Origin: a virus
Virus record (IMG/VR): IMGVR_UViG_3300009285_001913
Coordinates: 1 to 29,642 of that record
DNA length: 29,642 nt
Reading direction: 5' to 3' (one strand)
The notes under the pieces were generated by a model. It was not told the origin of the DNA and searched no databases. It was given only the letters and a program-made list of their open reading frames with translations. Made by a program: the position numbers and the translations under genes. Below are positions 9,918 to 28,414 of the stretch, in pieces (position 1 is the stretch's first letter; the number at the start of each line of letters is the position of its first letter).

Positions 9918-10784
9918 ATGGCTTCTGAGACCATCGACGGCACTGCCGGCGAATCGCCGGACAGCTTCGCCGGAATGCAGCTTACGCCCGGCTATCGGCC
10001 GGAGTTGCAAAAGCTGCCTCAGAAGAAGATCGCGATCCTCGGGACGTGTCCCTCACGGCTCCAAGCCCCCGTGGGGGACATTTCCTGGGAAATCTGGACC
10101 ATCGGCCCCGGCGGCAAGAACTCGAACCGATGGGAGCGCCTGTTCGAGATTCACGGCAAGGGATCGTGGCCCGAAGGCTTCCGGGAATACCTGGAGGAAT
10201 TGAAGGCCGAAAAGCCGCCCAAGATCATCTACACCGAGGAGCCCATGCCGGACTGGCCGGCGAACGTCGTCTTTCCGAAGCAGGCGATGTTCGAGAAGTA
10301 CGGCCGCATGTGGTTCACGTCCTCGATCGCCTACGCCCTCGCCATGGCGCTGGAGGAAAACGTCACCGACATGGGCTGTTGGGGCATCGACCTCGAGAGC
10401 GGCGAGGAATACCGCTCGCAGTTCACGGCGGCAAAATACTTCCTGCACCTTGCCCGCCTCGCCGGCGTAAACATGTGGCTGCCGGAAGGATGCGGCCTTC
10501 TCCGCGACCCGCACCCGTACCCAGAGGCGTGGGAATCGCATCTGGCGCAGACAATCATGGCGAAACAGGATTTTCTCCAGCAAATCCTGTCATCGAAAAC
10601 CACACAGCACGGCCAGCTTGCCGCCGAGATCAACCACATCAGCGGCGAGCTCGCGGCCTTCGAGTTCATCAAGAAAACCTACGTGATCGGCGGCGAGCAG
10701 GCGGACGCGCGCCTTCCGACGACGCAGAAGCCGAGCCTGGAATCCAAGATCGACATGCTGATCGCGCTGCTCAGGAGCAAATGA
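9918..10784 (+). CDS. Rossmann-like phage protein, possible MptE/GT42-type glycosyltransferase, copy A
   Basis: 288 residues. After a flexible N terminus come KKIAILGTCPSRLQAP (36-51, a G-x-x-P-S nucleotide-loop-like start), SWEIWTIGPGG (56-66), RWERLFEIHG (71-80), MWFTSSIAYALAMALEENVT (131-150), DMGCWGIDLESGEEY (151-165) and a C-terminal helical region. The spacing of the GxxPS loop, the T-S-S helix with A-x-A-L-E-x-x-V-x-x-(L/M)-G, and the G-(I/V)-D strand resembles GT42 sialyltransferases (CstII: GNGPS ... TSG...ALGY.EI.L.G.D) and DUF115/MptE-like proteins. That link is inference from motif order only. A second copy lies at 27497-28414. An internal ATG at 9975 is an alternative start. Its stop overlaps the terminase start. 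Confidence 0.6.
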   Translation: MASETIDGTAGESPDSFAGMQLTPGYRPELQKLPQKKIAILGTCPSRLQAPVGDISWEIWTIGPGGKNSNRWERLFEIHGKGSWPEGFREYLEELKAEKPPKIIYTEEPMPDWPANVVFPKQAMFEKYGRMWFTSSIAYALAMALEENVTDMGCWGIDLESGEEYRSQFTAAKYFLHLARLAGVNMWLPEGCGLLRDPHPYPEAWESHLAQTIMAKQDFLQQILSSKTTQHGQLAAEINHISGELAAFEFIKKTYVIGGEQADARLPTTQKPSLESKIDMLIALLRSK

Positions 10785-12355
10785 GCGTTTTCGACGACCT
10801 GATGGCCCAACTCGACAAGTTGCCGGCGCGCGAGCGCGAGGCGCTTTCCCGACACGTCATGACCGCCACGGCGTCGGACATCTGGATACCAAATCCAGGC
10901 CCTCAAACGGAAGCGTACTATTGTACAGCGGATGAACTGTATTTTGGCGGCAGCGCCGGGGGCGGGAAGAGCGAAATAGGTCTCGGATTGGCCTTCACGG
11001 CGCACGAACGGTCGCTTCTTTTGCGCCGGATCAACGACGACGCCCGCGCCCTCGCCGACCGTGCCGTCGAGATCGTCGGGCACAGCAAGGGACTTCGCCG
11101 CGACATCCTCGAATGGCACCTGCCCGGCCGGATGATCGATTTCGGCGGATGCCAACTGGAGACGGACAAGCAACGCTACAAGGGCAAGCCGCACGATCTT
11201 ATTTTCTTCGACGAGGCCGCCGATTTTCTCGAATCCCAAGTGGACTTCATCACGCTGTGGCTCCGGTCCACGAACCCGACGCAGAGGTGCCGGATCGTAT
11301 TCGCGTCGAACCCGCCGACGACGGCCGAGGGGTTCTGGCTGGTACGGCGGTTCGCGGCGTGGCTCGACCCGAAGCATCCGAATCCGGCCAAGCCCGGCGA
11401 AATCCGCTGGTATCTCCGGCGCTGCGAGGACGAGGATGAGGTTGACGGGCTGGGGCCGTATCCGGTCGGCGCCGAGATGGTGAAGGCGACCAGCCGCACG
11501 TTCATCCGGTCGCGCCTTGAGGACAACCCGGACCTCATTCACAGCGGATACAAGGACCGGCTGCATCTGGCGCCGGTCGAGTTGCGAGACGCCTATCGCG
11601 AGGGGAAGTTCGAGGCGAGCCTGGCCGATCAGCCGAATCAGGTCATCCCGACGGCGTGGGTGATGGCCGCGCAGAAGCGGTGGCGGCCGAAGATACCCGA
11701 TGGCATCCCGATGGTGGCGATGGGGGTCGATTGCTCGGGCGGTGGCAAGGACCCTCTGATCATCGCGCCACGGTACGATACGTGGTTCGCGCCCCTGGTC
11801 GAGGTTGCCGGCAAGGACATGCCCGTCGAGAGCCTTGGGAAGTTCTCGGCGGCAGTGATCCTGTCGCATCGCCGGCATGGCGCGGCCATCGTCCTCGACA
11901 TGGGCGGAGGCTACGGCAACTCGATTTTCGAGCGCCTGCGCGACAACAACGTGCAGGTGGTCCAGTACAAGGGAAGCGAATCGACGTTGCAGCGGACGCG
12001 CGACCGCACCCTCGGTTTTTACAACGTGCGGTCACACGCGATCTGGAAGTTCCGCGAGGCTCTCGACCCGGATCAGGAAGGCGGATCGCCGATCGCGCTT
12101 CCCGACGATCAGCGGCTTCTCGCCGATCTTGTCGCGCCCAAGTTCGAGCCGGGAGCGCGAGGCATCAAGGTCGAGGCCAAGGAGGATGTGGTCAAGCGTC
12201 TTGGCCGTTCGACCGATCGCGGCGACGCGGTGATGATGTCCTGGTACGCATGGGCGCCTGCGCTTGGCGGCCTGGCTTTCGGCCATGATGGCGAAGGCCG
12301 CCGTGCCGGCAGGCCGGTCTACATCATGGGCCGCCACCGAAGGAGACATCGATGA
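10781..12355 (+). CDS. terL: Terminase large subunit (packaging ATPase-nuclease)
   Basis: 524 residues. It pumps DNA into the capsid and cuts the concatemer. Walker A is GGSAGGGKS (56-64) and Walker B is LIFFDEAADF (about 140-149), followed by the coupling motif IVFASNPPTT. The RNase H-like nuclease half shows acidic residues in MVAMGVDCSGGGKDPL, AAIVLDMGGGYGNS and STDRGDAVMMSWY, matching the usual three-acid layout. The length is normal for the family. The start is the ATG overlapping the previous stop (ATGA); the longer frame upstream is a shadow. It is separated from the small subunit by about 7 kb, whereas the two are usually adjacent. Confidence 0.93.
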   Translation: MSVFDDLMAQLDKLPAREREALSRHVMTATASDIWIPNPGPQTEAYYCTADELYFGGSAGGGKSEIGLGLAFTAHERSLLLRRINDDARALADRAVEIVGHSKGLRRDILEWHLPGRMIDFGGCQLETDKQRYKGKPHDLIFFDEAADFLESQVDFITLWLRSTNPTQRCRIVFASNPPTTAEGFWLVRRFAAWLDPKHPNPAKPGEIRWYLRRCEDEDEVDGLGPYPVGAEMVKATSRTFIRSRLEDNPDLIHSGYKDRLHLAPVELRDAYREGKFEASLADQPNQVIPTAWVMAAQKRWRPKIPDGIPMVAMGVDCSGGGKDPLIIAPRYDTWFAPLVEVAGKDMPVESLGKFSAAVILSHRRHGAAIVLDMGGGYGNSIFERLRDNNVQVVQYKGSESTLQRTRDRTLGFYNVRSHAIWKFREALDPDQEGGSPIALPDDQRLLADLVAPKFEPGARGIKVEAKEDVVKRLGRSTDRGDAVMMSWYAWAPALGGLAFGHDGEGRRAGRPVYIMGRHRRRHR

Positions 12356-12603
12356 GCGAGATCATTCAGGGCGTACAGGCCGTGGGGACATTGCTCGGCG
12401 GCATCGGCCTGTTGTCCAGCATGGGCAAGGACACGCCCCCGGCCGCGCCGTTGCCTCAAGTGAAGGAGCCGCCGCCCGTGCCGAGCGCGGGCGACGACGC
12501 CGCGCGTCGCGCCGGCGTGCGCGAGATGCAGAAGCGGCAACAGTCGAGCGGGCGCCTTTCGACGTTCCTGTCCGATTCGCAGCGCGAGAGATTGGGGGGC
12601 TGA
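12352..12603 (+). CDS. 83-residue pre-portal protein, unknown
   Basis: Overlaps the terminase stop (ATGA). Residues about 5-24 (IQGVQAVGTLLGGIGLLSSM) are hydrophobic and could insert in a membrane. A Pro-rich linker (PPAAPLPQVKEPPPVPSAG) follows, then an Arg/Gln helix and SSGRLSTFLSDSQRERLGG. A GR-STxL...LGG ending is common in small phage proteins placed just before the portal. The role is unknown; an accessory virion or ejection component is possible. Confidence 0.65.
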   Translation: MSEIIQGVQAVGTLLGGIGLLSSMGKDTPPAAPLPQVKEPPPVPSAGDDAARRAGVREMQKRQQSSGRLSTFLSDSQRERLGG

Positions 12604-12604
12604 C

Positions 12605-12973
12605 ATGAGCGATCCGGGCGACACCAGTGGCGTAAGCAACGGCGTTGTCGAACGCACGGATGCGGCCTCGCGCGAGGTCTCGCTGTTGTCGGACATGGTT
12701 GCCGCCGGCATGAACCCTGACAATCCGGCTGACCGCACGATCGCGCGGGTGGGGACCGCGATGGGCATACCCCCAGACCCCGCCAAGGCCAGTCAAGCCA
12801 CGATCATGTCCATGGGAAGCGCCGCGGCTTTCGGCGCATTGACGCTGCTCGGCTCCATCGGGAAAAACTTCGCATCCAGGGCCGGCCGTTCACTGTTTGG
12901 GGCTCAACCGGACGGCGGAGACGAAGAGCGTCGTCGTCTCGGCGGCGGCAGCCGCGAAAAGTTGGGCGGCTAG
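12605..12973 (+). CDS. 122-residue protein before the portal, unknown
   Basis: Starts one base after the previous stop, MSDPGDTSGVSNGVVERTDA. A middle segment with Ala and Gly (ASQATIMSMGSAAAFGALTL, then LGSIGKNFASRAG) is weakly hydrophobic. The C terminus (RRRLGGGSREKLGG) ends in a LGG motif like the gene before it (RERLGG), so the two may share a tail motif by duplication or function. I do not recognise the family. Position between the terminase and portal suggests a minor head protein. Confidence 0.6.
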   Translation: MSDPGDTSGVSNGVVERTDAASREVSLLSDMVAAGMNPDNPADRTIARVGTAMGIPPDPAKASQATIMSMGSAAAFGALTLLGSIGKNFASRAGRSLFGAQPDGGDEERRRLGGGSREKLGG

Positions 12974-14629
12974 ATGGAAGCGCGTTTCCGCCGTCTGATC
13001 GAGCTGGGCGACCGCCTGTTTTCGGCGCGCGGGTCCCTGCTCGACCTGTGGCAGGAAATCGCGGAGAACTTCTATCCCGAGCGCGCCGACTTCACGGCCA
13101 TCCGGAATCTTGGCGACGAGTTTGCCGACCATCTGGATACGTCGGCGCCGATCATAGCCCGCCGCGACCTCGGCAACGCCTTTGGCGCCATGCTCCGTCC
13201 GCCCGGCAAGGACTGGTTTCACATCCGCCTGAAGCGTCACGAGGTCGAGGACACCGCCGCGCGGCAGTGGCTTGAGATGGCCGAGCGCGTGCAGCGCAAG
13301 GTCATGTACGACCGCAATTCCGGCTTCATCCGCGCGACCAAGGAGGGCGATCACGATTTCGCCGCATTCGGGCAGGCGGTGCTGTCGTCGGAATTCGCCG
13401 TGCATCCGAATTTCGGCGCCATTCTCCTGCACCGGACATGGCACCTGCGGGACGTGGCATGGTCCGAGGACTCGTTCGGCACCGTCGATCACGTTCAGCG
13501 GAAATGGAAGCCAACGGCGCGGGAGATCGTGCGCCTGTTTCCGAAGACCGCGCATCCTACTGTCCGGCGCGCCGCCGAGCCGCAACAGGAGCCCGATCGG
13601 ACGTTCGACATCCGGCACGTCATGGTCGCCGGGTACAATCACGAAAAGAAGCTCCGCCAGCCGTGGGTGTCGCTGTTCATCGACGTGGAGAACGAGCACG
13701 CGATGGAGGAAGTAGGGTCATGGACGCCCTACTACATCATCCCGCGCTGGCAGACGGTTTCCGGGTCGCAATACGCCTATTCGCCGGCCACCGTGGCGGC
13801 CCTCGCCGATGCTCGCCTGATCCAGGCGATGACGTATACGTTGCGCGAAGCGGGCGAGGTCGCCATCAACCCGCCGATGGTCGGACGCGGCAGCGCGATC
13901 AAGGTGATCGAAGGATACGCCGGCGGATTTACCGAGATCGACGCCGATTACGATGAGCGGCTTGGCGAGGCGATCAGGCCGTTGAACAAGGGCGGCGAGC
14001 GCATGATCCCGATCGGCCTGGAAATGACCCAGGACGTTCGCGCGATGATCGCCGAGGCGTTTTTCCTGAACCGCATCACGCTGCCGTCCGCCGGCCTTGG
14101 CGGCATGTCGCCATTGGAAGTGTCGCAGCGGATCGAGGAATACATCCGCACGGCGCTGCCGCTGTTCGAGCCGATGGAGACGGACTACAACGGCGCCCTT
14201 TGCGAACAGGATTTCGAGCTGATCCTACGCAACGGCGGGTTCGGGCCGCCATCGGCCATGCCGGAATCCCTGGGCGGCCAAGAGGTCGAGTTCATGTTCG
14301 AGAGCCCGTTGCGCGAGGCGACCGACCGCATCATGGGCCAGCGGCTTCTTGAGGCCAAGAGCCTGTTGGTCGAGGCGTCTCCGCTCGACCCGATGGCGGC
14401 GCAGATGGTCGACGCCCGCGTGGCGCTGCGCGACGCGCTGCACGGCATCGGCGTCCCGGCCCGCTGGATGCGCGACGAAAACACGATGGCGCGGATCGAA
14501 CAGGCGGCGGTGCAGAAGCAACAGGCGGCGCAGATGCTACAGACGGTTTCGGCCGGGGCGCAGGTGGCCGAGCAGATTGGCATGGCGGGCCAGGCGCTGG
14601 CCCCGCGCGAGCAGGCGGTGGCGCAGTAA
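12974..14629 (+). CDS. Portal (head-to-tail connector) protein
   Basis: 551 residues, close to T7 gp8 (536). The portal dodecamer is the gate for DNA and the seat of the tail. Typical podovirus connector blocks: LLDLWQEIAENFYPERADFT (about 24-43), a GNAFGAMLRPPGKDWFHIRL segment (about 68-87), DHDFAAFGQAVLSSEF, and a long helical C-terminal half with NRITLPSAGLGGMSPLEVSQ and a Gln/Ala-rich tail. It begins directly after the previous stop (TAGATG). Scaffold and capsid genes follow at the expected distance. Confidence 0.92.
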   Translation: MEARFRRLIELGDRLFSARGSLLDLWQEIAENFYPERADFTAIRNLGDEFADHLDTSAPIIARRDLGNAFGAMLRPPGKDWFHIRLKRHEVEDTAARQWLEMAERVQRKVMYDRNSGFIRATKEGDHDFAAFGQAVLSSEFAVHPNFGAILLHRTWHLRDVAWSEDSFGTVDHVQRKWKPTAREIVRLFPKTAHPTVRRAAEPQQEPDRTFDIRHVMVAGYNHEKKLRQPWVSLFIDVENEHAMEEVGSWTPYYIIPRWQTVSGSQYAYSPATVAALADARLIQAMTYTLREAGEVAINPPMVGRGSAIKVIEGYAGGFTEIDADYDERLGEAIRPLNKGGERMIPIGLEMTQDVRAMIAEAFFLNRITLPSAGLGGMSPLEVSQRIEEYIRTALPLFEPMETDYNGALCEQDFELILRNGGFGPPSAMPESLGGQEVEFMFESPLREATDRIMGQRLLEAKSLLVEASPLDPMAAQMVDARVALRDALHGIGVPARWMRDENTMARIEQAAVQKQQAAQMLQTVSAGAQVAEQIGMAGQALAPREQAVAQ

Positions 14630-14832
14630 TGGAAAAGTGGCTTGGATACCGCGGTCTTTCATTATCCATTTCAACGTGGCCGATGGCGTACGGAAAAACA
14701 GCGTTCGTCATCTGCCTGGAATGGCGAAGGCGGCGTCATGTCGCGTTGATGACGCGATTCGACGGATGGAGGCCGGTGGCGTGCCGATGGATTGACCGCA
14801 ATCGGCAGAACGGAATGGCGCGCGCCGCATGA
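14629..14832 (+). CDS. 67-residue Trp/Arg-rich protein, unknown
   Basis: The ATG shares one base with the portal stop (TAATG) and the end overlaps the next ATG (ATGA). The protein starts MEKWLGYRGLSLSISTWPMA and has a strand-like FVICLEWRRRRHVAL segment, and is basic overall. The overlaps on both sides favour a real gene. I do not recognise it. Confidence 0.5.
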   Translation: MEKWLGYRGLSLSISTWPMAYGKTAFVICLEWRRRRHVALMTRFDGWRPVACRWIDRNRQNGMARAA

Positions 14833-15143
14833 AGCCACCCCGCATCGTCCTTCTGCCGCGCGAGTTGGCCGATCTGCACGCGATCAGGGCGCTGGCGCGA
14901 GGGGATGCGAGCGAGGAACAGCAGCGGCGCGCGCTCCGCTGCATCATCGAAGAACTTTCCGGTCTGTACCGCTTATCGTACGTGTCGGAAAGCGACCGGG
15001 ACACGAGTTTCGCCGAAGGCCGGCGCAGCGTTGGCTTTGCGATCGTCGGCATCGTCAAACTGGGCGCCGACGAGATCGGCCGCGCATACAAGACGGCGAT
15101 GGCCGATCAACCCACAGACAATCAAAGACGAAAGAGAAAGTGA
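14829..15143 (+). CDS. Small helical protein between portal and scaffold (Bbp19-like?)
   Basis: 104 residues. The core RALARGDASEEQQRRALRCI and a later DTSFAEGRRSVGFAIVGIVK match the layout of small phage proteins (Bbp19 type and relatives) that sit between portal and capsid genes in podoviruses: a short helix, an A-R-A-L-x-W/C-I-like helix, then S-x-x-D-T-x-F-x-E-G-(K/R)-R. The resemblance is from memory. Function unknown. Start overlaps the previous stop (ATGA). Confidence 0.65.
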   Translation: MKPPRIVLLPRELADLHAIRALARGDASEEQQRRALRCIIEELSGLYRLSYVSESDRDTSFAEGRRSVGFAIVGIVKLGADEIGRAYKTAMADQPTDNQRRKRK

Positions 15144-15144
15144 C

Positions 15145-15315
15145 ATGAAAAACGGCGAGATGCCGGACCATGATCCGGAATACGACCTGCGTACCATGAT
15201 CGAGGCCGCCAAGATCAAGATGGACCCGAAGCGCATGAAGGCGATGATGGGCAAGCGGGACGAAATGATGGCGGCCATGAAGGGCATGGGCGGCAAAATG
15301 AAGGGAAAGATGTGA
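15145..15315 (+). CDS. 56-residue Met/Lys-rich small protein
   Basis: Starts MKNGEMPDHDPEYDLRTMIE and ends in a Met/Lys/Gly-rich tail (AAMKGMGGKMKGKM). Thirteen of 56 residues are Met. An AAAGAGAAAG-like purine run precedes the ATG. It ends one base before the scaffold gene. The centre is likely helical. The role is unknown; a scaffold partner or a small virion peptide is possible from position. Confidence 0.6.
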   Translation: MKNGEMPDHDPEYDLRTMIEAAKIKMDPKRMKAMMGKRDEMMAAMKGMGGKMKGKM

Positions 15316-15316
15316 C

Positions 15317-16318
15317 ATGGCTGACGACGAAATCAACGCCGACGATCTGGCGCTCGTTGACGGCGGAGATTCTGCCGATGCGTCCGATGATGCCGCCGGC
15401 GCCGCTGGTGACACGACGGGGACTGCGGAGGACAAGGCCGATGTGGGAGACAAGGGCAAGACGACGACGCTTCTGAGCGACCCGGACAAAGCCGCCGCAG
15501 AGCCCGTCACGCACCCGGCCGACTGGCCAGAGGACTGGCGCGACCGCATGGCGGCGGGCGACGACAAGCTCCGTAAGCGTCTCGACCGCTTCAAGAGCCC
15601 GCTCGACGTGGCCGCGTGGGGCGTCAACGCCGAAAAGAAGTACAAACAGGGCGTGGCGCCGTCGGAATTCCCGGCCGGGGGGACGGACGACGAAAAGAAG
15701 GCATGGCGCGCCGAGCACGGCATCCCGGATGATCCCAAGGACTACCTCAAGGACATCAAGCTGGACGACGGCCTTGTGATCGGCGACCGCGACAAGCCGA
15801 TGGTCGAGGAATTCGCCGCCGCGATGCACGAGGAGAACGCCGATCCGAAGTACGTGCAGCGGTCGATCAACGCCTATTTCCGGATGCGCGACAAGATGGC
15901 GCGCGACCGCATGGACAACGACGAGCGGCAGAAGATGGACGCGCGGGACGCGCTGCGGGACGAGTTCGGCAACGAGTTTCACCGCAACCTGACGGCCGCA
16001 TACGGGCTGGTCGAGAGTGCCCCCGAGGAAGTCCGCGAGCAGTTGATGGGAGCGCGGCTGGCGGATGGTACGGCCCTCGGCAACCATGCCCCGACGCTGC
16101 GGTGGCTGACCGGCCTCGCGCTCGAAATCAACCCGGCGGCGACGGTCGCGCCCGGCTCGCGAGGCGACGGCCTTTCCGTACTCCAGGACCGCAAGACGGA
16201 AATCGAGCGGATCATGCGCGACGACCGCGACAAATACGACCGTGACCCCAAGATGCGGGCGGAGTATCGTGACCTCCTGGAGGCCGAGGAGAAGTTCGAG
16301 AGGCGGAGACGCGCATGA
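15317..16318 (+). CDS. Capsid scaffolding protein
   Basis: 333 residues. It guides assembly of the capsid shell and is then lost. The N terminus is highly acidic and disordered (Asp/Ala-rich, residues 1-60). HPADWPEDWRDRMAAGDDKL is a typical opening of the ordered part, followed by LDRFKSPLDVAAWGVNAEKK and long charged helices. A basic helical tail (EAEEKFERRRRA) is in the usual place for capsid binding. The position directly upstream of the capsid region, acidic low-complexity start and helix content support the call. It overlaps the next small gene as ATGA. Confidence 0.85.
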   Translation: MADDEINADDLALVDGGDSADASDDAAGAAGDTTGTAEDKADVGDKGKTTTLLSDPDKAAAEPVTHPADWPEDWRDRMAAGDDKLRKRLDRFKSPLDVAAWGVNAEKKYKQGVAPSEFPAGGTDDEKKAWRAEHGIPDDPKDYLKDIKLDDGLVIGDRDKPMVEEFAAAMHEENADPKYVQRSINAYFRMRDKMARDRMDNDERQKMDARDALRDEFGNEFHRNLTAAYGLVESAPEEVREQLMGARLADGTALGNHAPTLRWLTGLALEINPAATVAPGSRGDGLSVLQDRKTEIERIMRDDRDKYDRDPKMRAEYRDLLEAEEKFERRRRA

Positions 16319-16422
16319 ACATCGAGGACATCGAGGATATCGTCATTTTCGCGATTGCGGCGACGCCCGTTTTCGTCACCGTGATCTTCGGCATCGCCAT
16401 CGTCTTTGGGGTGTTCCCATGA
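16315..16422 (+). CDS. 35-residue single-pass membrane peptide
   Basis: Starts MNIEDIEDIVIFAIAATPVF and continues with VTVIFGIAIVFGVFP. Residues about 9-34 form one long hydrophobic helix after a short acidic N terminus. It overlaps the scaffold stop (ATGA) and the radical SAM start (ATGA), which strongly favours a translated gene. Possible roles (membrane peptide, holin-like or regulator) cannot be told apart; the acidic, short N terminus is not a typical holin. Confidence 0.65.
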   Translation: MNIEDIEDIVIFAIAATPVFVTVIFGIAIVFGVFP

Positions 16423-17303: not shown

Positions 17304-17325
17304 TGCCGCTGCCGGCAAGAAGTGA

Positions 17326-17350
17326 GATTGTCGCCTCGATCGGGACAATC
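17326..17350. promoter_or_regulatory. Inverted repeat GATTGTC ... GACAATC
   Basis: Perfect 7-bp arms with an 11-base spacer, about ten bases upstream of the -35 candidate. It lacks a T-run, so it is a weak terminator; an operator or activator site is as likely. The GATTGT/ACAATC half-sites also occur in the inverted repeat at 2594-2614, in the opposite arrangement. Confidence 0.45.
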
Positions 17351-17360
17351 AATTTCATTG

Positions 17361-17389
17361 TTGACTTTCCTGCACCAATCCGTTAAGCA
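17361..17389 (+). promoter_or_regulatory. Sigma70-like promoter candidate for the capsid gene
   Basis: TTGACT at 17361-17366, a 17-base spacer, then TAAGCA at 17384-17389. The -35 is near consensus and the -10 is moderate. It stands in the only large gap of the window, upstream of the gene expected to be most highly expressed, with a terminator two genes later. Confidence 0.55.
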
Positions 17390-17556
17390 TTCGACCGTCC
17401 GGCCAACCCGCTTCGGCGGCGCCGGAGCCTGAACCGACCGACGCAACGCCCTGCGACGGCAACGTGACGGCCCCGCGCAAGCGGACAACCCATCCAGCCA
17501 TCAAGCAGAGAACCGGCGCGTAGGGTCCCCAACCACCCGTGTTGGAGGCCACTCGC

Positions 17557-18411: not shown

Positions 18412-18423
18412 GGAGGACTGACA

Positions 18424-18720: not shown

Positions 18721-18731
18721 CCTCCCCACCT

Positions 18732-18763
18732 GGGGCGGCTCCTTCGGGGGCCGCCCCCTTTTT
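18732..18763 (+). terminator. Intrinsic terminator after the capsid unit
   Basis: GGGGCGGC pairs with GCCGCCCC; the inner bases extend the stem to close on a TTCG loop (CC-TTCG-GG), and five T follow at 18759-18763. The stem is strong and GC-rich. It ends the two-gene capsid unit; downstream tail genes have no clear promoter and probably rely on read-through. Confidence 0.9.
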
Positions 18764-18778
18764 CCCAAAGGACCAATC

Positions 18779-19252: not shown

Positions 19253-19256
19253 GGCG

Positions 19257-19901: not shown

Positions 19902-19902
19902 C

Positions 19903-22638
19903 ATGGGCGCCGACAACACCCCGCTGGCGACGTTCAACCGGGGCATCGTCGATTCCGAGGCGTTCGGCCGCGTCGATCTGAAGCGCGTGGCGTTGTCGGC
20001 GGCGACTCAGACCAACTGGATACCCAGGGCCGCCGGGGCCATGAGCCTGCGGCCTGGCCTTGAATATATCGACGGCACGCGAAACAACGCCGAGACGCGG
20101 CACATTCCATTCATCTACGCGGTGGACGATACCGCCATCGTCGAATTGACGGACCTGTTCATGCGCATCCGGGTTGACGAGCAGATCGTCGAGCGGGTCA
20201 GCGTGTCGTCGGCGGTGACCAACGGAAATTTCACGACCGATCTCACCGGCTGGACGGATGCGGACGAAAGCGGCGCCACGTCGGCATGGGCGGCGGGCGG
20301 GTACTTGTCGCTGATCGGCACGCGGTTCAATGCCGCCATCCGGCGCCAGACGGTCACGGTCGCCGCCGCCGACCGGAACATCGAGCACGGGCTCAAGGTC
20401 GTCGTCAACCGCGGGCTGGTGACGCTCAAGGTCGGCAGCACGTCGGGCGACGACGATTACATCGCCGAGACGCAGCTTGGCGTCGGCGATCATTCGCTGG
20501 CGCTCACGCCGACGGGCGGCAGCTTCTTCATCGAGGTTTCGGCGAAATCGCAGGCGGCGGCGCTGCTGGATTCGATCAACGTCGAGAGCGCCGGCGCGGT
20601 GACGTTGACGACGCCATGGACATCGGGCGACTTCGACGACATCCGGTTCACGCAATCGGCGGACGTGATCTTCGTCGCGTCGAACGGATACCAGCAGCGC
20701 AAGATCGAACGTCGCGGCACGCGGTCGTGGTCGTTAGTCCTGTACGAGACCGAGGATGGCCCGTTCCGTCCGATCAACGCCACGACCATCAAGATGACGC
20801 CGACGGCCGTTTCTGGGGATACCACGCTGACGGCATCGGACGATTTCTTTCAGTCCGGCCATGTCGGCGCGCTGTTTCGGGTGACTTCGATCGGGCAGTC
20901 GGTCGAAGTCGATGTGACCGCCGAGGATCAGTTCTCCGATACGATCGTCGTGACCGGAGCCGGCGCGACACGTAATTTCGACGTGGTGCGCGCCGGCACA
21001 TGGGTCGCGACGGTCACGTTGCAGCAATCTCCGAGCGAACCCGGCAACTGGGTAGATTTGCAGACCTACACGGGCAACGGCACGACCACCGTCAACGATG
21101 CCCTGACCAACGGGGTAGTATATTACCGCGTCGGGGTCAAGGCGGGGAATTTCACGTCCGGCACGGTCGAGATTTCGATGACCTACAGTTCCGGCACGAT
21201 CGATGGCGTTTGCCGGGTGACTTCGATCACGTCATCCCTCGCCGCCAGCGTGGCCGTGCTCTCATCCTTCGGCCAGACGACTTCGAGCGAGACATGGCAC
21301 GAGGGTCTTTGGTCAGGCTATCGTGGCTATCCAACGTCCGTGGCGCTGTACGAGGGCCGACTGTGGTGGACCGGCAAGGACAAGATCGCGGGCTCGGTTT
21401 CCGACGCCTATGCCAGCTTCGATGACACGGTGGAAGGCGAATCCGCGCCGATCATCCGCAGCATCGGCCTTGGCTCCGTCGATACCGTGGCGTGGACGCT
21501 GCCGCTGCAACGACTGATGCTCGGTACGGATCGGTCGATCGTTTCCGTCCGCTCGACCAGCCTGGACGAGCTTCTGACCACGACCAACTTCAATATCAAG
21601 GAAGCGAGCAACCAGGGATCCAGCCGCGTCGCGGCGGAGAGAATCGACGGACGCGGCGTGTTCGTGCAGGCCAACGGCAAAAAGCTGTACGAGATCTCGT
21701 TCAACCCGTCGATCACCGGCGAGTACGATTATCTGGCGAACGACCTTTCCGTTCTTGTGCCTGAAATCGGCGACCCCGGTTTCGTCCGCATCGCCGTCCA
21801 GCGCCAGCCCGACACGCGCATCCACTGCCTGCGGGCCGACGGCACGGTGGCGATGCTTCTATTCAATCCGCTTGAGGATTTGAAGGCGTGGGTCGACATC
21901 GAGACGGGGGACGCGGACGGCGACAATGGCGCCATCGAGGATGTCCTGGTGATGCCGGGCGGCATCGAGGATGCCGTCTACTACACGGTGAAGCGGACGA
22001 TCGACGGCGCGACCGTCCGCTATCTTGAAAAGCTGGCGCCCCAGGACGAAACGATCGGCGGCACCTATGACAGTCAAGCCGACGCCTTCACGATGTTCAT
22101 CAACAATCCCGCGTCGGCGACCGTGACCGGCCTCGACCACCTTGAAGGCGAGAGCGTCGTCTGTTGGGCGGACGGCAAGTGCCTCAAGGACGGCGACGGC
22201 GCGATCAACACGTTCACGGTGGCGTCCGGGTCGATCACGCTGACGGACGAAGGCGCGTCCTATTCGGCGTCGCAGGGCATCGTCGGGCTGGCCTATAAGG
22301 CACGGTTCAAGTCGGCGAAGCTGCCCTACGCCGCCTCGCTCTCGACGCCACTCACGCAACGCCAGCGCATCGCCCAGATCGGGCTGATGATCAAGAACAC
22401 GCACAACCAGGGTCTCAAATTCGGCCGCGACTTCACAAACATGGACAACCTGTCGAAAACGATCGAGGGGGCGACCGTGGACGACGACGCCATTCATTCC
22501 GATGTCACCATTCCCGGCGTGACGTTTCCGGGCGAGTCGAGCGCGGACGCGCGGCTGTGTCTGGAGGCGAACGCGCCTCGTCCGGCGACCGTGACGGCGG
22601 CGGTGCTATCCATTGGAACATTCGACAAGCGGCCGTAA
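19903..22638 (+). CDS. Tail tubular protein B (T7 gp12-like nozzle)
   Basis: 911 residues (T7 gp12 has 794). It forms the tail nozzle. The N terminus TPLATFNRGIVDSEAFGRVD and TNWIPRAAGAMSLRPGLEYI are the usual family start; later blocks include DVIFVASNGYQQRKIER, YPTSVALYEGRLWWTGKDKI and the GTDRSIVSVRSTSLDEL region. An Ig-like or carbohydrate-binding-like insert (GNWVDLQTYTGNGTTTVNDA) around residues 370-420 may explain the extra length. It overlaps the next gene by 26 bases. Confidence 0.9.
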   Translation: MGADNTPLATFNRGIVDSEAFGRVDLKRVALSAATQTNWIPRAAGAMSLRPGLEYIDGTRNNAETRHIPFIYAVDDTAIVELTDLFMRIRVDEQIVERVSVSSAVTNGNFTTDLTGWTDADESGATSAWAAGGYLSLIGTRFNAAIRRQTVTVAAADRNIEHGLKVVVNRGLVTLKVGSTSGDDDYIAETQLGVGDHSLALTPTGGSFFIEVSAKSQAAALLDSINVESAGAVTLTTPWTSGDFDDIRFTQSADVIFVASNGYQQRKIERRGTRSWSLVLYETEDGPFRPINATTIKMTPTAVSGDTTLTASDDFFQSGHVGALFRVTSIGQSVEVDVTAEDQFSDTIVVTGAGATRNFDVVRAGTWVATVTLQQSPSEPGNWVDLQTYTGNGTTTVNDALTNGVVYYRVGVKAGNFTSGTVEISMTYSSGTIDGVCRVTSITSSLAASVAVLSSFGQTTSSETWHEGLWSGYRGYPTSVALYEGRLWWTGKDKIAGSVSDAYASFDDTVEGESAPIIRSIGLGSVDTVAWTLPLQRLMLGTDRSIVSVRSTSLDELLTTTNFNIKEASNQGSSRVAAERIDGRGVFVQANGKKLYEISFNPSITGEYDYLANDLSVLVPEIGDPGFVRIAVQRQPDTRIHCLRADGTVAMLLFNPLEDLKAWVDIETGDADGDNGAIEDVLVMPGGIEDAVYYTVKRTIDGATVRYLEKLAPQDETIGGTYDSQADAFTMFINNPASATVTGLDHLEGESVVCWADGKCLKDGDGAINTFTVASGSITLTDEGASYSASQGIVGLAYKARFKSAKLPYAASLSTPLTQRQRIAQIGLMIKNTHNQGLKFGRDFTNMDNLSKTIEGATVDDDAIHSDVTIPGVTFPGESSADARLCLEANAPRPATVTAAVLSIGTFDKRP

Positions 22639-23017
22639 GTGTCCCGTCATCCGCCCGGCCACGGAAGCGGACATAAGGCTGTTCTACGGCCGCGCGGAAT
22701 GGTCGTTCCGGGCGCTCGCGGCCGAACTGGATGGCGAGGTCCTGGCGGTTGGCGGCATCTACTACGACGGCCCCAACATCGTGGCGTTTTCGTCTGTGAA
22801 GCCAGGAGCGAACCTGGAATACCCGTTCACGGCCGCGCGGATGACCAGGAAGATCATGGAGATCGTTGACGGCCGCGCGTGCTTCGCGATTGCGAGCCAG
22901 AAGTTCGACACGGCGCCGGCGCTGTTGGAGCGCCTGGGTTTCGAGAGGATCGAGGACAGGGTGTATCGATGGGCGAAGAAGTCACCCGCGCATTCGGCGC
23001 CGCCGGCACGCTCCTGA
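22613..23017 (+). CDS. GNAT-fold protein at the T7 gp13 position
   Basis: 134 residues from a TTG at 22613; no ATG or GTG fits before the domain, so the start is uncertain. VIRPATEADIRLFYG is a typical GNAT opening; EVLAVGGIYYDGPNIVAFSS gives the central strands, and LLERLGFERIEDRVYRW the last helix and strand. The usual acetyl-CoA loop (Q/RxxGxG/A) is not seen, so it may not be an active acetyltransferase. T7 gp13 (138 residues) is of similar size and position and is an internal virion assembly protein. The gene overlaps both neighbours. Confidence 0.7.
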   Translation: MEHSTSGRKCPVIRPATEADIRLFYGRAEWSFRALAAELDGEVLAVGGIYYDGPNIVAFSSVKPGANLEYPFTAARMTRKIMEIVDGRACFAIASQKFDTAPALLERLGFERIEDRVYRWAKKSPAHSAPPARS

Positions 23018-23487
23018 AAGCGGCGGCGATGTTCCGTGGCGGCGAGGCGGCGGCGTCGGAAGGCGCGGCCGTGCAGCGCGCGCGTGAGTTCGAGGCGACG
23101 CAGATCGAATCCATCGCCCGCCAGGAACGCGCGATGGCCACCCAGAAGGCATCGGGCGAGGCACGCAAGGGAAGGCTCGTACAGTCGGCGCTGACGGCTC
23201 GCGCGGCGGCATCCGGCGGGTCCGCGACCGACCCCTCCGTCCTGTCGCTCGCCGGCCAGATCGCCGAGGAGGTCGATCTGCGGAAACGGCTGGCGCTGTT
23301 CGAGGGCGAGATCGACGCGCAGGCGCTTGAGGCGATCGCCAGTGGTCGGCGCGCCACGGGCGCCGAGGCGCGGCGGGTCGGCAAGATCAAGCGACAGGCC
23401 GCGCGGTCGAAGGGGTTCACGACGCTGTTCGATCTCGCCGACGACGAGACGTTTGAAACCCTGTTCAAGAAGTTCGGGGAAGGCTGA
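22969..23487 (+). CDS. Internal virion protein (T7 gp14-like)
   Basis: 172 residues from the ATG at 22969 (MGEEVTRAFGAAGTLLKAAA); the frame is open to 22879 but this overlaps the GNAT-like gene more. It contains a long Ala/Glu/Arg helix (REFEATQIESIARQERAMAT), then RAAASGGSATDPSVLSLAGQ and EVDLRKRLALFEGEIDAQAL, the layout of gp14-like proteins, which form the outer-membrane channel when DNA is ejected. Overlap of 49 bases with the gene before. Confidence 0.75.
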   Translation: MGEEVTRAFGAAGTLLKAAAMFRGGEAAASEGAAVQRAREFEATQIESIARQERAMATQKASGEARKGRLVQSALTARAAASGGSATDPSVLSLAGQIAEEVDLRKRLALFEGEIDAQALEAIASGRRATGAEARRVGKIKRQAARSKGFTTLFDLADDETFETLFKKFGEG

Positions 23488-23490
23488 GCC

Positions 23491-25131
23491 ATGGCTAGAC
23501 TGCCCGATGTGACGGCGCTTGGCGCGCGTCCCGAGCCGAAGGCGCCGCGCGCGATCGCGACCCTGCCGGATGCCGGCGCGGGCGAAAAGGCGGCGACTGC
23601 GGCGGCGTTGGATGTTGGAGGATCATTCTCTCAAATCGAGGAAAAGCTGACGCGCGCGCACGATCGAATTCAAAAACGAGAAGATACCATCGCGACGGTC
23701 AACGCGCTTACGGCGTATGATGAGTTCGCATCCGCAGAACTGAGGAAAGCACAAACAGAGGGTGATCTGAGCGATCTGAAACAAACCAAATCTTTTGGCG
23801 AGATTCTTTCAAAGCGTCAAAATGAAATTGAGGAATCATACAGCGGATCGGCAGACGCCAAGGCCCAATTGACGGCCAATCTTGAGCGCATCCGGTCGCG
23901 CACAGCCATATCTGCCGCCACGATCGGCGCGGAGATATCCGCGAAAAAGACCGGGAATCTTCTTGGCGCCGAACTGAACAGGATGATCGGCGAGATCGGG
24001 GTAAAGCCTGGGCTGATCGCCAGCCGTCGCGAACGGTGGAACCAATACGTTTCCACATTCAAGGGAGCCCTTGCGCCAGAGCAAGAACAGGAATTCATCA
24101 AGATCGGAGAGAGGCAAATCGTTGGTGCGGAGATCGCCAACCTGATCGGCCGTTCCGCGTCTGATCAGACGACACTCGAAGAAGCGGACCTTCTGTTGGG
24201 AGACCCGGCGGTTACGGCCGCTCTTCCGGCCTCGGATCAAGAGAAGCTGCGCTCAAATATTGCGGAGGCGAAAAAGGCAATAGCCGGCGCGGGAGAGGCG
24301 AGGGGACGCGCGCGGCGCGCGGAAATTGCTGCGCTTCTTGGACCGGACGCAACGCCGGAAAATATTCAGTCCGCCATCATGCAGGAGCTTAAGCTGGCCG
24401 CGCCTGATAAGAACGTGCAGCTAGCGACGTTCCGGTTCACGGATGGCACATTCAAGTCGATCATGCGCGACGACCGCAATGCCATGCAGGCCGCGCTTGA
24501 CGCGGGTGGCGTGGAAACGCCTCGCAGCATCCAGGCTGGCACCGCATCGGCACTGGAGACGGCACAGACCCCAACTCCGAAAGAAGTGCGCGAATTGAGC
24601 CAAGGCATAAATCGGACCATCGGCGACCTGAATGAGCTAGGCGTTACGGCCGATCTATTCGCCAAGACCCCGAGCGCGGGCGGCATCGTCGGGCTGGCCA
24701 TAGAAAAGGCCGGTGGACTTGCTCAACAGGTCACGGACCTCATTGGTCTGGAAATTAAGGTTCCAAGAAGCAAGGAAGTCACAGAAGCGAGGACGCAGGC
24801 GAGATTCACCACGTCCCGACTCCTGACGGTTATCACGCAGGAAGAATCGGGGCGGTTTACCGAAGCAGAACGCACGCTCGCCCAGGATACCTTGCGAACG
24901 CTCGATCCGACAGCTTCATCCACTCAGATCAAAGAGGCGCTCGATACTTCCATCAGGATCATGCGCCGGTCTGAGGTCCGTCTCGTTCAACAGCTTGTGA
25001 CGGCGGCGGGGATCGATCTCAACACAGACGACGGCCTTCTTCAGGCGCGGAGCGTTCTCTTGGCGCAAGGATATACCACGGACGGGGCGATAAGGGTTCT
25101 CCGCGATCTTTTGGGCAGGACCGGGCGCTGA
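23491..25131 (+). CDS. Internal virion / ejection protein (gp15 position)
   Basis: 546 residues, nearly all helical: IEEKLTRAHDRIQKREDTIA, EILSKRQNEIEESYSGSAD, IASRRERWNQYVSTFKGALA, with tetratricopeptide-like helix pairs. No enzyme motif. T7 gp15 (747 residues) is in the same place and forms the periplasmic tunnel; this protein is shorter. The call rests on synteny and helix content. The DNA is visibly richer in A and T than the tail genes before it. Confidence 0.6.
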   Translation: MARLPDVTALGARPEPKAPRAIATLPDAGAGEKAATAAALDVGGSFSQIEEKLTRAHDRIQKREDTIATVNALTAYDEFASAELRKAQTEGDLSDLKQTKSFGEILSKRQNEIEESYSGSADAKAQLTANLERIRSRTAISAATIGAEISAKKTGNLLGAELNRMIGEIGVKPGLIASRRERWNQYVSTFKGALAPEQEQEFIKIGERQIVGAEIANLIGRSASDQTTLEEADLLLGDPAVTAALPASDQEKLRSNIAEAKKAIAGAGEARGRARRAEIAALLGPDATPENIQSAIMQELKLAAPDKNVQLATFRFTDGTFKSIMRDDRNAMQAALDAGGVETPRSIQAGTASALETAQTPTPKEVRELSQGINRTIGDLNELGVTADLFAKTPSAGGIVGLAIEKAGGLAQQVTDLIGLEIKVPRSKEVTEARTQARFTTSRLLTVITQEESGRFTEAERTLAQDTLRTLDPTASSTQIKEALDTSIRIMRRSEVRLVQQLVTAAGIDLNTDDGLLQARSVLLAQGYTTDGAIRVLRDLLGRTGR

Positions 25132-27500
25132 TGGGCGATACTTCTGACCGGGGTTTTCTGGATGCCGTGCGTTCCGGGATGCCGCAGGTTCCGGCGCAAT
25201 CCGACCAATCGTTCATCGAGGATGTGCGCCGCCAGCAAATGACTCATTCCGGGTCGTCGATCGGACAGCAATCTCCCGAACAATTCCTGGCTGGCCAGGT
25301 TGGTCAGCTTCGCCTTGGCGAACCAGGACTGGACGACTTCAAGATCAGGGCGGACATATCCCTGTCCGACTCGATTGAAGAAAAAGCGGCCAAGTTCAAG
25401 GCGAATTTCCCGGACGGGGATTTTGTTGAGGTCCGCCAGCCCACCGATCCGAACAAGGTCTTTCCGCTCGGCGGTACGACATATCTATTCCGCCGCAACC
25501 AAAGTGAGCCGTTCGCGAAGTTCGATGCCGACGCATTCGAGAAGTTCGAGCTTTGGATGGATATCGCCGACTTCACGGGCGATGTTCCGTCGATCGTCAT
25601 GGAGACGATGATAACGCGCGGCGGCACGCTTATCCAAACTCTCGGCCGGTTGTTTCTCGGTGGCGCGACCGGAGAGGTGGTCAAGGAGGCGGTTGAGGAC
25701 TGGCGCGGGTTTTCCAGCGAAACCGCTGGTCAGGTAACGAGCAGGGCGCTCACGACCGGCGCTGCCAGCGCCGTTGGCGGCGCCGCCACGGTGGCCGTGT
25801 CAGGTCCGATCAACATTCTTCGCGGGCGCGCGAACATAGGCATCGTTCCTGGAGCGCCGTCTGCGGTCGCGGCGGCCAGGCGGCTTGGCGTGAAGGGCCT
25901 TTTGCCAGGACAGATTTCAACATCTCCGATCCTGCGGAAATTGCAGGGGCAATCAGGCGCGACCGTGAGCACCGTCGGCAACTATATGCGGGAACAGAAC
26001 GAAGGCGCTATTCGTGCGCTCCTACGTCTCGACGATCAGTATCTTCCCGATCTTCTTGCCGACAACCTGGAGAAACTGAGCAAAGAGGCGAAGCGCCAGA
26101 TCGTCGACACGATCAAGAAAAGGCCCATGGACCTTTCCGAGACCGGCAGCGCCATTCAGCACGGCATCTCCGAATACGACGATCTGACGACCGCGCTGAT
26201 AAACAGGGCCTATGCCAATGCGCGGGCGCTCGAAACGCCAGAATTCGATATCAGTCCCGCAGTCGAGGTCGCGAACAAAATCCAAGTCGGCGTGCGAGGC
26301 GTCGTCGCCGGAGAGGAAACCAGACTCAATCCTCTCGACAGGCAGCTGGCGGATGTCGTTGGGATCATCAAGGAGCTTGATCCGTCGCTTCCGGATGTCG
26401 GCGCCGGCTCCGCGACCGACCAATTGCGGGCGCTCAGATCAACGCTTTATGACCTTAAGACGCCCGATCCAGGGACGATCGCCAGACAGCCCCAAAAGGA
26501 CGCGGCGCGGCTGTATGCGGCCATAACCAAGGTGCTAAAGGACCCGCGTAACACAAGTCCAGAATTCCGGGCCGCGTGGGACAGAGCCAATTCCATGGCG
26601 AGCGACAGGTTTGACACATTTGACAAACTGATCATCGTCAAGGCTGTGCAGAACGAGACTCCCGCCATGATGGCAAATCGCCTTGCGCAGCCGCTCCAGG
26701 TGGACAATCTGAAAGTCCTCAGGGAGACGATTCCCGCGCCCAGGTGGAACGAATTCAGGGAGGGGGTCAAGGCTGATTTCCTGAGCGTCCGCAATGTCGA
26801 CGAATTGACGAGTAGGCTCCAGAACTTCGACCAGCCGACGCTCAACGAGCTTTTCAGCGCGCAGGATCAGGCGATCCTGAAAGGAATTGGAAAGAGCATC
26901 GACCGCTTCAACAGATTGAATATAGGTAAAATTCTCGAACAGCAAAGGAGCCGCGCCAACGTCGTCAGAACGTTGATGGACAAGGGAGATGCAGGCACCC
27001 TTGACGCCTTCATGAAAAGCATCCCGGCCGATCCGAATGCACCCGTGCGCCGTCAGTTGAGGGCTGGACTCATCGAGGACGCGATCCAAAGCGTGACGAC
27101 CGTGGCCGGGAACAGACTGGTCATCAACCCGAAGGCTCTTGCTTCATACATCGACAAACTGAAAAAAACAGGAGCGGAGCGGCTTCTGACGACGGAAGAC
27201 AAAAGGGTTCTGATCGACCTCGATCAGGTCATGCAATTCATCCCTGACGTGTCCGATTCGGGAACTAGCCTGATCGCCGGACAGGTTGTGTCGGAAGTCA
27301 AAAAGGGGAAACTCGACGCCATTCTCACCCTCGTTCACTACGCGGGCATAGGGCGGATTTTGACGAGCAAGACGGCGCAGCGAGTCCTCATCGGCGCCGG
27401 CCGCAGTCAGCCTATGGATTTCACGAATCTAAGGATTTTCGGCGGGGTCCTCGGAACGGTCGCGTCTGATTTCGAGCAGGAATCGCAACCCGCGCAATGA
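25131..27500 (+). CDS. Large internal virion / DNA-ejection protein (gp16 position)
   Basis: 789 residues, ATG sharing one base with the previous TGA. N-terminal part with FDADAFEKFELWMDIADFTG; a Gly/Ala-rich hydrophobic region around residues 165-235 (GGTLIQTLGRLFLGGATGEV and ASAVGGAATVAVSGPINILR) that may contact membrane; then a long helical C-terminal half with NREYL-like charged helices, ending LVHYAGIGRILTSKTAQRV. I do not see the lytic transglycosylase domain of T7 gp16. Role inferred from position and the helix/membrane layout. Composition is AT-richer than the surrounding genes, as in the gene before it. Confidence 0.6.
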   Translation: MGDTSDRGFLDAVRSGMPQVPAQSDQSFIEDVRRQQMTHSGSSIGQQSPEQFLAGQVGQLRLGEPGLDDFKIRADISLSDSIEEKAAKFKANFPDGDFVEVRQPTDPNKVFPLGGTTYLFRRNQSEPFAKFDADAFEKFELWMDIADFTGDVPSIVMETMITRGGTLIQTLGRLFLGGATGEVVKEAVEDWRGFSSETAGQVTSRALTTGAASAVGGAATVAVSGPINILRGRANIGIVPGAPSAVAAARRLGVKGLLPGQISTSPILRKLQGQSGATVSTVGNYMREQNEGAIRALLRLDDQYLPDLLADNLEKLSKEAKRQIVDTIKKRPMDLSETGSAIQHGISEYDDLTTALINRAYANARALETPEFDISPAVEVANKIQVGVRGVVAGEETRLNPLDRQLADVVGIIKELDPSLPDVGAGSATDQLRALRSTLYDLKTPDPGTIARQPQKDAARLYAAITKVLKDPRNTSPEFRAAWDRANSMASDRFDTFDKLIIVKAVQNETPAMMANRLAQPLQVDNLKVLRETIPAPRWNEFREGVKADFLSVRNVDELTSRLQNFDQPTLNELFSAQDQAILKGIGKSIDRFNRLNIGKILEQQRSRANVVRTLMDKGDAGTLDAFMKSIPADPNAPVRRQLRAGLIEDAIQSVTTVAGNRLVINPKALASYIDKLKKTGAERLLTTEDKRVLIDLDQVMQFIPDVSDSGTSLIAGQVVSEVKKGKLDAILTLVHYAGIGRILTSKTAQRVLIGAGRSQPMDFTNLRIFGGVLGTVASDFEQESQPAQ

Positions 27501-28414
27501 AAAAAATCTGCATCATCGGCACCACGCCGTCGCGGGGGATGGCGCCGTTCGACGATCCGGAATGGGAGGTCTGGACGATCGGGCCGGGCGGGCGGGACGT
27601 TCCGGGCCACCGTTGGGAGCGGCTTTACGAGATACACGGCGCGGGCCGGAACCATACATGGTCCGAGGACTTCGGCGAGTACCTTGAATTCCTGTCGAAG
27701 GTCGAGCCGCCGAAGCGGGTGATCACGATCCGGCCGATCAGCGAGATGATCCGCGATTGGGCCGAGCAGCACGGCAAGCACGACGTGTCGTTCGCGGGCG
27801 CGTGGTCGGCGTGCGAGGTCATGGACAAGGACGGCCTCATGCGGAAGTACAAGCGCATGTGGATGTCGTCGTCGTTCTCGTGGGCGATGGCGCAGGCGCT
27901 TGAGGAAGGCGTCACCGACCTGGGCGTCTACGGGGTCGATCTGGAGGCGGGCGAGGAATACGTGACGCAGTTCGCGGGCGCGCGTCATTTCCTCGATTTG
28001 GCCGAACATCTTGGCGTCAAGATTCACATGCCGCCCCACTGCGGGCTGTGGCGCGATCCGGCGCCGTATCCCGAGCGTTGGGAGACGTACGAGGCGATCT
28101 GGTTCCAGAACCGCATCCGGATGCTTGGCAACCTCGCCTCGCACCAACAGGCGGCGATGAACGAAATCCAGGCGCAGATGTTCCGGCGCGAGGGCGCCAT
28201 CCGCGCGCTGTCCGACATCGCCGAGCACCACAAGGGCGCGGTCAAGATGGAAGCCGAGGACGCGATGAAGGCCCTGCACGCGGACAACATCAAGGCATCG
28301 TCCGAATTGCAGCGCGCGGCGGCGGAATTGAGCCACCTGAACGGCCAGTTGGCGACGTGCAAGCTCTACATGGAGCATTTCGTTTTCACGGGCATGACCG
28401 GGATACGGCAATGA
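27497..28414 (+). CDS. Rossmann-like phage protein, possible MptE/GT42-type glycosyltransferase, copy B
   Basis: 305 residues, paralogue of the 9918 product. It starts directly with KKICIIGTTPSRGMAPFDD, then WEVWTIGPGG (23-32), RWERLYEIHG (39-48), MWMSSSFSWAMAQALEEGVT (121-140), DLGVYGVDLEAGEEY (141-155), HCGLWRDPAPYPERWETYEA (181-200) and a long Ala/Glu/Gln C-terminal helix that suggests oligomerisation. The shared blocks are colinear in both copies. As for copy A, the fold link to GT42/MptE-like proteins is inference. It lies between the last ejection protein and the tail fibre and overlaps both as ATGA. Confidence 0.6.
   Translation: MKKICIIGTTPSRGMAPFDDPEWEVWTIGPGGRDVPGHRWERLYEIHGAGRNHTWSEDFGEYLEFLSKVEPPKRVITIRPISEMIRDWAEQHGKHDVSFAGAWSACEVMDKDGLMRKYKRMWMSSSFSWAMAQALEEGVTDLGVYGVDLEAGEEYVTQFAGARHFLDLAEHLGVKIHMPPHCGLWRDPAPYPERWETYEAIWFQNRIRMLGNLASHQQAAMNEIQAQMFRREGAIRALSDIAEHHKGAVKMEAEDAMKALHADNIKASSELQRAAAELSHLNGQLATCKLYMEHFVFTGMTGIRQ

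Follow-up and report, generated by a model that had tools for sequence, protein, structure and literature searches.

Two related genes in an uncultured phage, one beside the terminase gene and one beside a tail fibre-like gene, raise the question of whether a phage may decorate its own particles with sialic-acid-like sugars. The window, meaning the whole stretch of DNA that was analysed, is 29,642 nucleotides in length. A preliminary description had noticed the pair, referred to here as P0001 and P0002, and proposed them as candidates of CstII/MptE-like architecture that could use a CMP-sugar. The analysis confirms the pair and supports this interpretation, although activity, donor and acceptor remain inferred. 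The two genes are as follows:

9918..10784, + strand: P0001, a protein of 288 aa with predicted GT42/MptE fold, Rossmann core at about aa 35-200 and C-terminal coiled coil at about aa 208-257
27497..28414, + strand: P0002, a paralogue of P0001, 305 aa

Both proteins contain the same series of motifs in the same order, including GTCPS/GTTPS, WEIWTIGPGG/WEVWTIGPGG, RWERLFEIHG/RWERLYEIHG, MWFTSSIAYALAMALEENVTDMG/MWMSSSFSWAMAQALEEGVTDLG and GIDLESGEEY/GVDLEAGEEY. BLASTP of one against the other gave 42% identity over 244 aa (190 bits, E 1e-63), which is far beyond chance. Searches with P0001 as a single sequence found nothing in IMG/VR, nor did searches with terL, and profiles were needed. With these, 69 distinct family members from phages were aligned, and chance or an annotation artefact is rejected by this alignment together with the 42% identity. 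No Pfam, NCBIfam or PHROG family covers these proteins. Pfam, NCBIfam, PHROG and PDB sequence searches with single proteins gave only noise or coiled-coil hits, and the "transcription factor" and OXA hits to P0002 are such noise. The deposited name of a Microcystis phage homologue, "type 11 methyltransferase", is not supported by any match.

Predicted fold and conserved positions

The AlphaFold model of P0001 (pLDDT 86) has a Rossmann-type core followed by a C-terminal coiled coil. In Foldseek, CstII, a GT42 sialyltransferase, is the only PDB match below 1e-3 (2.7e-4). VIA-align ranks archaeal MptE, thiamine pyrophosphokinase (TPK), CstI/CstII and SteA together (Z 9-10.7), with Z of 9.0-9.7 for CstI, CstII and the P. 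multocida ST (147-159 residues, rmsd 3.5-3.7), dropping to 5.5 for unrelated Rossmann proteins. The highest scores belong to M. jannaschii HPPK, read from its title as MptE (8sd5, Z 10.7, 136 residues, rmsd 2.8), and to B. subtilis TPK (10.5), about 1 Z above the best GT42. The fold is shared with MptE and TPK, and neither of the two contrary outcomes named in the preliminary description appears to have occurred. In predicted-structure databases, weaker fold matches were found in BFVD to phage proteins annotated MptE-like/DUF115 (A0A6J5PVH5, A0A5B8IGA8), while the two closest BFVD matches (A0A6J5RL04, A0A516M9U3) carry no functional name.

These fold scores leave room for a pyrophosphokinase-like or other nucleotide enzyme related to MptE and TPK, acting on a small molecule. 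However, sequence profiles favour GT42 over MptE. The full-length profile against the PDB was swamped by coiled coils until the coil was trimmed; the coil-free profile, searched against all PDB sequences, retrieved 8 sequences at E<=10, all of them GT42, each too weak alone (best E 0.07, range 0.07-1.2). The hhalign probability was 34% against CstII, 4% against an MptE-like protein, and under 1% against two controls. Additionally, no acidic metal-binding pair of the kind apparently typical of TPK stands out, the beta3 end carrying FExH, and the association with CMP-sugar genes described below is left unexplained. The pyrophosphokinase reading seems unlikely.

The family appears to share with GT42 (CstI/CstII and P. 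multocida ST) the N-terminal GxxPS loop, a TS(S/G)-YM-A-AI motif followed by GxD and then Y in the same order, and (N/S) at the beta2 end. Positions matching the GT42 nucleotide-site motifs, mapped by sequence motif and not by superposition with ligand, appear to be conserved across the family, namely the GxxPS loop, Ser/Asn at the beta2 end, His/Asn/Gln at the beta3 end, (T)SS, GxD and EY. At the positions matching CstII Asn31, Asn51, Ser132 and Tyr162, which probably belong to the nucleotide site, the counts are Ser31/Asn14 of 67, His61/Asn4/Gln2, Ser49/Asn17 and Tyr59, and this correspondence may be regarded as suggestive only. By contrast, the catalytic Tyr156 and the general base His188 of GT42 are not conserved: the position after GxD(M) is Ala38/Glu9 with no Tyr, and there is no conserved His downstream. 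The coiled coil stands in place of the GT42 C-terminal part, and the invariant Glu164 and Gln168 are the family's own. None of the 69 members matched PF06002 (GT42) or PF01973 (MptE-like/DUF115) at E<=0.1. PF06002 was also sought in 398 Bacillota genomes and was found nowhere, including the controls, so that no GT42 set could be built from genomes. The proteins may therefore work like GT42 or Maf enzymes, but membership of GT42 or DUF115 is not supported.

The absence of Tyr156 and His188, the long coiled coil, which could provide oligomerisation, and the location among head genes would also fit a non-catalytic virion assembly or accessory protein that reuses the fold. Against this, polar site positions are among the most conserved (Glu164 in 69/69, Gln168, Asp158, His79 and Ser/Asn135), and there is the CMP-sugar gene association. 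The non-catalytic reading is considered improbable.

Association with CMP-sugar genes

The window encodes a partial sugar pathway upstream of P0001:

3689..4741, + strand: CBS-domain sugar-1-phosphate nucleotidyltransferase
4980..6293, + strand: N-acetyl sugar amidotransferase, WbuX family (TIGR03573, 299 bits against a cut-off of 203)
6290..7072, + strand: GT2 glycosyltransferase
7371..7949, + strand: CMP-sugar synthetase, compact at 192 aa (PF02348, E 3e-18; best NCBIfam model PseF, 7e-29, but below the cut-off of that model)

The window lacks NeuB. Of 50 records with the family, 19 encode a CMP-sugar synthetase (PF02348) and 16 a NeuB, against 0 and 0 of 50 capsid-matched controls. A first control design with diverse capsid alignments failed for lack of conserved stretches. 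Nine of the matched controls themselves carry the family and have no nonulosonate gene, and with these removed the comparison of 19/50 with 0/41 family-free controls gives a Fisher p=1.7e-6. Conversely, 18/50 records chosen by NeuB alone carry the family. Distances are 209-920 bp in 7 records, and in two cases (L048 and L070) the synthetase is the gene directly upstream. The nonulosonate label needs at least 11 changes on the family tree, so the pairing was gained or lost repeatedly. However, 29 of the 50 records show no phage nonulosonate gene, and fragmentary records and related lineages make the counts non-independent (the records G039/G043 and G040/G041 are near-duplicates).

The GT2 enzyme of the window could itself be the transferase that uses the CMP-sugar, leaving P0001 and P0002 to do something else, as it lies in the same sugar cassette here and in L018. 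Yet the only GT2 in the 50 family records is in one record (G001), although 21 have nonulosonate genes, and CMP-nonulosonates do not appear to be known donors for GT2 enzymes. A role of GT4 enzymes as the alternative transferase found no support, with no GT4 in 22 nonulosonate-positive records including the window. The GT2 alternative is the least likely of those considered.

Neighbouring virion genes and candidate acceptors

The genes of the family sit in late structural modules beside head, portal and spike-like genes in many unrelated phages. Further genes of the window are:

3168..3692, + strand: HTH protein with a weak match to Sf6-type terminase small subunit, probable terS
7959..8468, + strand: small Ser/Thr-rich protein of a different family, 59% identical to an L018 ORF
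8469..8930, + strand: second copy of the small Ser/Thr-rich protein at 9399..9914 (30% S+T)
9399..9914, + strand: small Ser/Thr-rich protein (28% S+T) directly upstream of P0001, whose C-terminal beta domain resembles phage spike/baseplate domains in its model; candidate acceptor
10781..12355, + strand: terminase large subunit, terL (weak family matches: PF04466 0.018, PF03237 0.023, TIGR01547 0.028)
25131..27500, + strand: 789-aa ORF directly upstream of P0002, probably an internal virion protein, by position only
28411..29642, + strand: fibre-like ORF directly downstream of P0002, with 36% Ala, 20% Ser+Thr and repeats of AYVAAGS, running off the window; possible second acceptor

P0001 ends in an ATGA overlap with the terL start (10781-10784), and P0002 is ATGA-coupled to the genes on either side. 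In 23 of 67 cases, the gene directly upstream of the family member encodes the small, usually Ser/Thr-rich, spike-like protein, which is found in 0/160 control capsid loci. A precedent is provided by Maf1 of A. caviae, whose domain belongs to the TPK superfamily and which is required for pseudaminylation of flagellin, O-linked at Ser/Thr (PMC3426422). The phage proteins are roughly 200-420 aa, against 695 aa for A. caviae Maf1. Phage-encoded glycosyltransferases have been proposed to glycosylate the capsid protein in mycobacteriophages, for example in the inference for Maravista (PMC11256854), in the abstract of which no nonulosonate involvement is stated.

The acceptor could instead be a host surface glycan, such as LPS, capsule or exopolysaccharide, serving receptor masking or superinfection exclusion rather than virion decoration. 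Characterised GT42 enzymes modify lipooligosaccharide (by the molecule name of 9c08). A protein of Azotobacter phage TayeBlu has been annotated alpha-2,3-/2,8-sialyltransferase, so that a CstII-type name has been given to a phage gene once before, and its authors propose that it acts on host exopolysaccharide (PMC12772287). The late structural modules would be an odd place for a host-surface modifier, though other LPS-type or membrane-linked genes were not searched for exhaustively. This is the strongest of the alternatives, yet still unlikely.

Taken at about even odds (roughly 0.5), the best reading is that P0001 and P0002 belong to a phage family of GT42/MptE-fold glycosyltransferases that take a nonulosonic acid (legionaminic, pseudaminic or sialic type) from a CMP-activated donor and attach it to Ser/Thr of virion surface proteins made in the same gene cluster. 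For P0001, the likely acceptor is the spike-like protein encoded directly upstream, and for P0002, the fibre directly downstream. The CMP-sugar would come from the phage's own synthetase and partial sugar pathway, completed by the host, or wholly from the host where the phage has no such genes. Catalysis, donor, acceptor, linkage and biological purpose (shielding or altered adsorption) are inferred, and no acceptor has been shown to be glycosylated. A broader and more tentative possibility is a widespread, undescribed phage module, in which a transferase of a new GT42/MptE-fold family, its Ser/Thr-rich spike-like acceptor encoded directly upstream and, in many phages, their own NeuB, CMP-sugar synthetase and amination/amidation genes together make phages display sialic-acid-like sugars on their particles.

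If this reading is right, many uncultured phages coat their particles with the same class of acidic sugars that bacteria use on flagella and animals use on cells, which would change surface charge, adsorption and perhaps immune or predator recognition of virions. It would give a function to a family without annotation, name a concrete acceptor next to it, and make phage nonulosonate genes testable as virion-decoration genes rather than only as genes acting on the host.

A phage protein family represented by two paralogous genes

The preliminary description had claimed that two genes in the window share a series of motifs in a conserved order, and both genes exist at their proposed positions, carrying all of these motifs in order. 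The encoded proteins, P0001 (288 aa) and P0002 (305 aa), align at 42% identity over 244 aa, with an E value of 1e-63. The stop of P0001 overlaps the terL start (ATGA at 10781-10784), while P0002 is ATGA-coupled on both sides, to a 789-aa gene upstream and to an Ala/Ser-rich fibre-like ORF downstream that runs off the window. The record is a 29.6-kb virus contig, and its features include the following.

2656-3165, protein with a NusG-like N-terminal domain (PF02357, 1.6e-11), directly before the probable terS gene; possibly an antitermination factor
3168-3692, probable terS
7371-7949, CMP-sugar synthetase
8469-8930, copy of the small Ser/Thr-rich protein
9399-9914, small Ser/Thr-rich protein, gene directly before P0001
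9918-10784, P0001
16410-17303, radical SAM protein (PF04055, 1.6e-6, below cut-off) inside the structural gene region
27497-28414, P0002
28411-29642, fibre-like ORF with long AYVAAGS repeats, 36% Ala, open at the window end

Single-protein searches of Pfam, NCBIfam, PHROGs and PDB sequences gave nothing credible. Among 50,697 records of phage isolates, only one has a homologue by tblastn, namely Microcystis phage Mvi-Yong1342-1, one gene upstream of terS, and other family queries found the same single record. Searches of IMG/VR gave 12 loci with P0002 and 80 with a profile, from which 69 distinct members were aligned. Several contigs hold two copies, so paralogous pairs recur. The residues conserved across members include K-I-A-I-x-G-x-A-P-S, A-P-[FY]-x-D-P-[SE]-W-E-[IV]-W, P-R, F-E-x-H, [YF]-F-T-S-S, A-L-A-I, G-[VI]-D-M and E-Y-x-x-Q, with Glu164 and Trp60 being invariant. 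On the family tree, P0001 is sister to the copy beside terL (76% identical) in L018, the nearest relative, followed by P0002 and then by the second L018 copy.

Predicted fold and comparison with GT42

The AlphaFold model of P0001, built from 68 sequences, has a mean pLDDT of 86 and a pTM of 0.69, and shows a Rossmann-type core and a long C-terminal helix. Foldseek against the PDB gave one match below 1e-3, CstII (1ro8) at 2.7e-4, followed by SteA and thiamine pyrophosphokinase. VIA-align gave M. jannaschii HPPK at 10.7, TPK at 10.5, CstI/CstII/P. multocida ST at 9.0-9.7, SteA at 9.7 and human sialyltransferases at about 7, before a drop to 5.5. The predicted fold alone therefore does not separate GT42 from MptE/TPK. 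However, the sequence leans to GT42, as a profile of the core without the coil retrieves eight PDB sequences at E<=10, all of them GT42 sialyltransferases, aligned over the TSS...GxD...EY stretch. Each match is individually weak (0.07-1.2), and the eight represent only two proteins, CstII variants and the P. multocida enzyme. Comparison by hhalign gives 34% for CstII, 4% for an MptE-like protein and under 1% for two controls. By motif mapping, the CstII Asn31 position holds Ser/Asn in 45 of 67, Asn51 holds His/Asn/Gln, Ser132 holds Ser/Asn and Tyr162 holds Tyr in 59 of 67, while Tyr156 and His188 are not conserved.

Association with nonulosonate genes

A whole sugar cassette plus spike-like genes is inserted between the probable terS and terL in the window (3168-10784). 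The cassette between the probable terS and P0001 holds a CBS-nucleotidyltransferase, a WbuX amidotransferase (above cut-off), a GT2 and a CMP-sugar synthetase closest to PseF but below its cut-off. This synthetase is only 192 aa, shorter than the PseF model (222) and than the 226-aa L018 homologue. L018 has CMP-sugar synthetase, LegC-like, NeuB and GT2 genes between its two family copies, and a WbuZ/HisF2-like gene just before the first. In another record, L061 (8971-11743), which has CMP-sugar synthetase and NeuB, two adjacent family genes are followed directly by a PseB-like 4,6-dehydratase.

Of 50 records with the family, 19 encode PF02348 and 16 NeuB, with 21 encoding either one. Fifty records drawn by capsid homology, of which 41 lack the family, have none of either (Fisher p=1.7e-6 for 19/50 against 0/41). 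This test ignores phylogeny and includes two near-duplicate pairs, but the label needs at least 11 changes on the family tree, 7 of them forced by well-supported branches. In seven records the synthetase lies 209-920 bp away, and in L048 and L070, two family loci, it is the gene directly upstream. A GT2 occurs in 1 of the 50 records and a GT4 in 0 of 22 nonulosonate-positive records including the window, so in 20 of those 22 this family is the only transferase found by these tests. In the reverse test, records chosen by NeuB alone, 18 of 50 carry the family, 17 of them strong. We have no clean IMG/VR base rate, and the capsid controls have 9 of 50, but were chosen near family members. In the isolate collection, the L018 NeuB finds only 3 of 50,697 records.

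Virion context, candidate acceptor and proposed mechanism

Upstream neighbours with a PHROG match are mostly major head, portal, minor head and morphogenesis proteins of several unrelated families. The gene directly before P0001 (9399-9914) and its copy (8469-8930) encode a small protein with 28-30% Ser+Thr. These belong to an array of small Ser/Thr-rich proteins of two families, in conserved order, between the sugar cassette and P0001/terL (window 7959-9914, at least three; L018 6553-9313, four). An HMM of the small protein finds 51 ORFs, 37 of which end within 200 bp of the family domain on the same strand. Counted on the 67 non-redundant rows, 23 have it directly upstream, and none of 160 control capsid loci has it. 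Most members are 22-32% Ser+Thr against 17% for neighbouring genes, though a few longer ones are 14-19%, and upstream genes as a whole are only slightly Ser/Thr-richer than other neighbours (p about 0.03 and 0.01). In one capsid lineage (capsid family A11, L182-L261, for example records G075, G077, G078, G080-G084 and G086), the family lies just downstream of the capsid gene, without phage CMP-sugar genes and without the recognised spike-like partner, and may use host donors or a different acceptor.

The C-terminal beta domain of the window member (model pLDDT 78) matches KP1 baseplate (Z 11.5), CBA120 TSP4 (10.3), T4 gp9 (9.2), Pa223 capsid spike (8.9) and T4 gp10 (8.6), nearly all of them phage surface or baseplate modules. 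That makes the small protein a plausible virion surface acceptor. P0002 sits in a comparable way beside the Ser/Ala-rich fibre-like ORF.

GT42, MptE/Maf and phage virion glycosylation are each known, and one phage protein (TayeBlu) has been named a sialyltransferase with a host-directed guess (PMC12772287). We found no paper describing this family, its link to nonulosonate genes or the adjacent spike-like partner, although only open-licence papers were covered and this absence is weak evidence.

In the mechanism we propose, in which every step beyond homology, fold and co-occurrence is inference, host or phage makes CMP-nonulosonate, P0001/P0002 bind it in the Rossmann core, and the sugar is transferred to Ser/Thr of the adjacent spike-like protein or fibre before assembly. 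The coiled coil may dimerise the enzyme or hold the acceptor, and the base may be Glu164 or His79. The best functional precedent is Maf1 of A. caviae, which has a TPK-superfamily domain and is required for pseudaminylation of flagellin, O-linked at Ser/Thr (PMC3426422).
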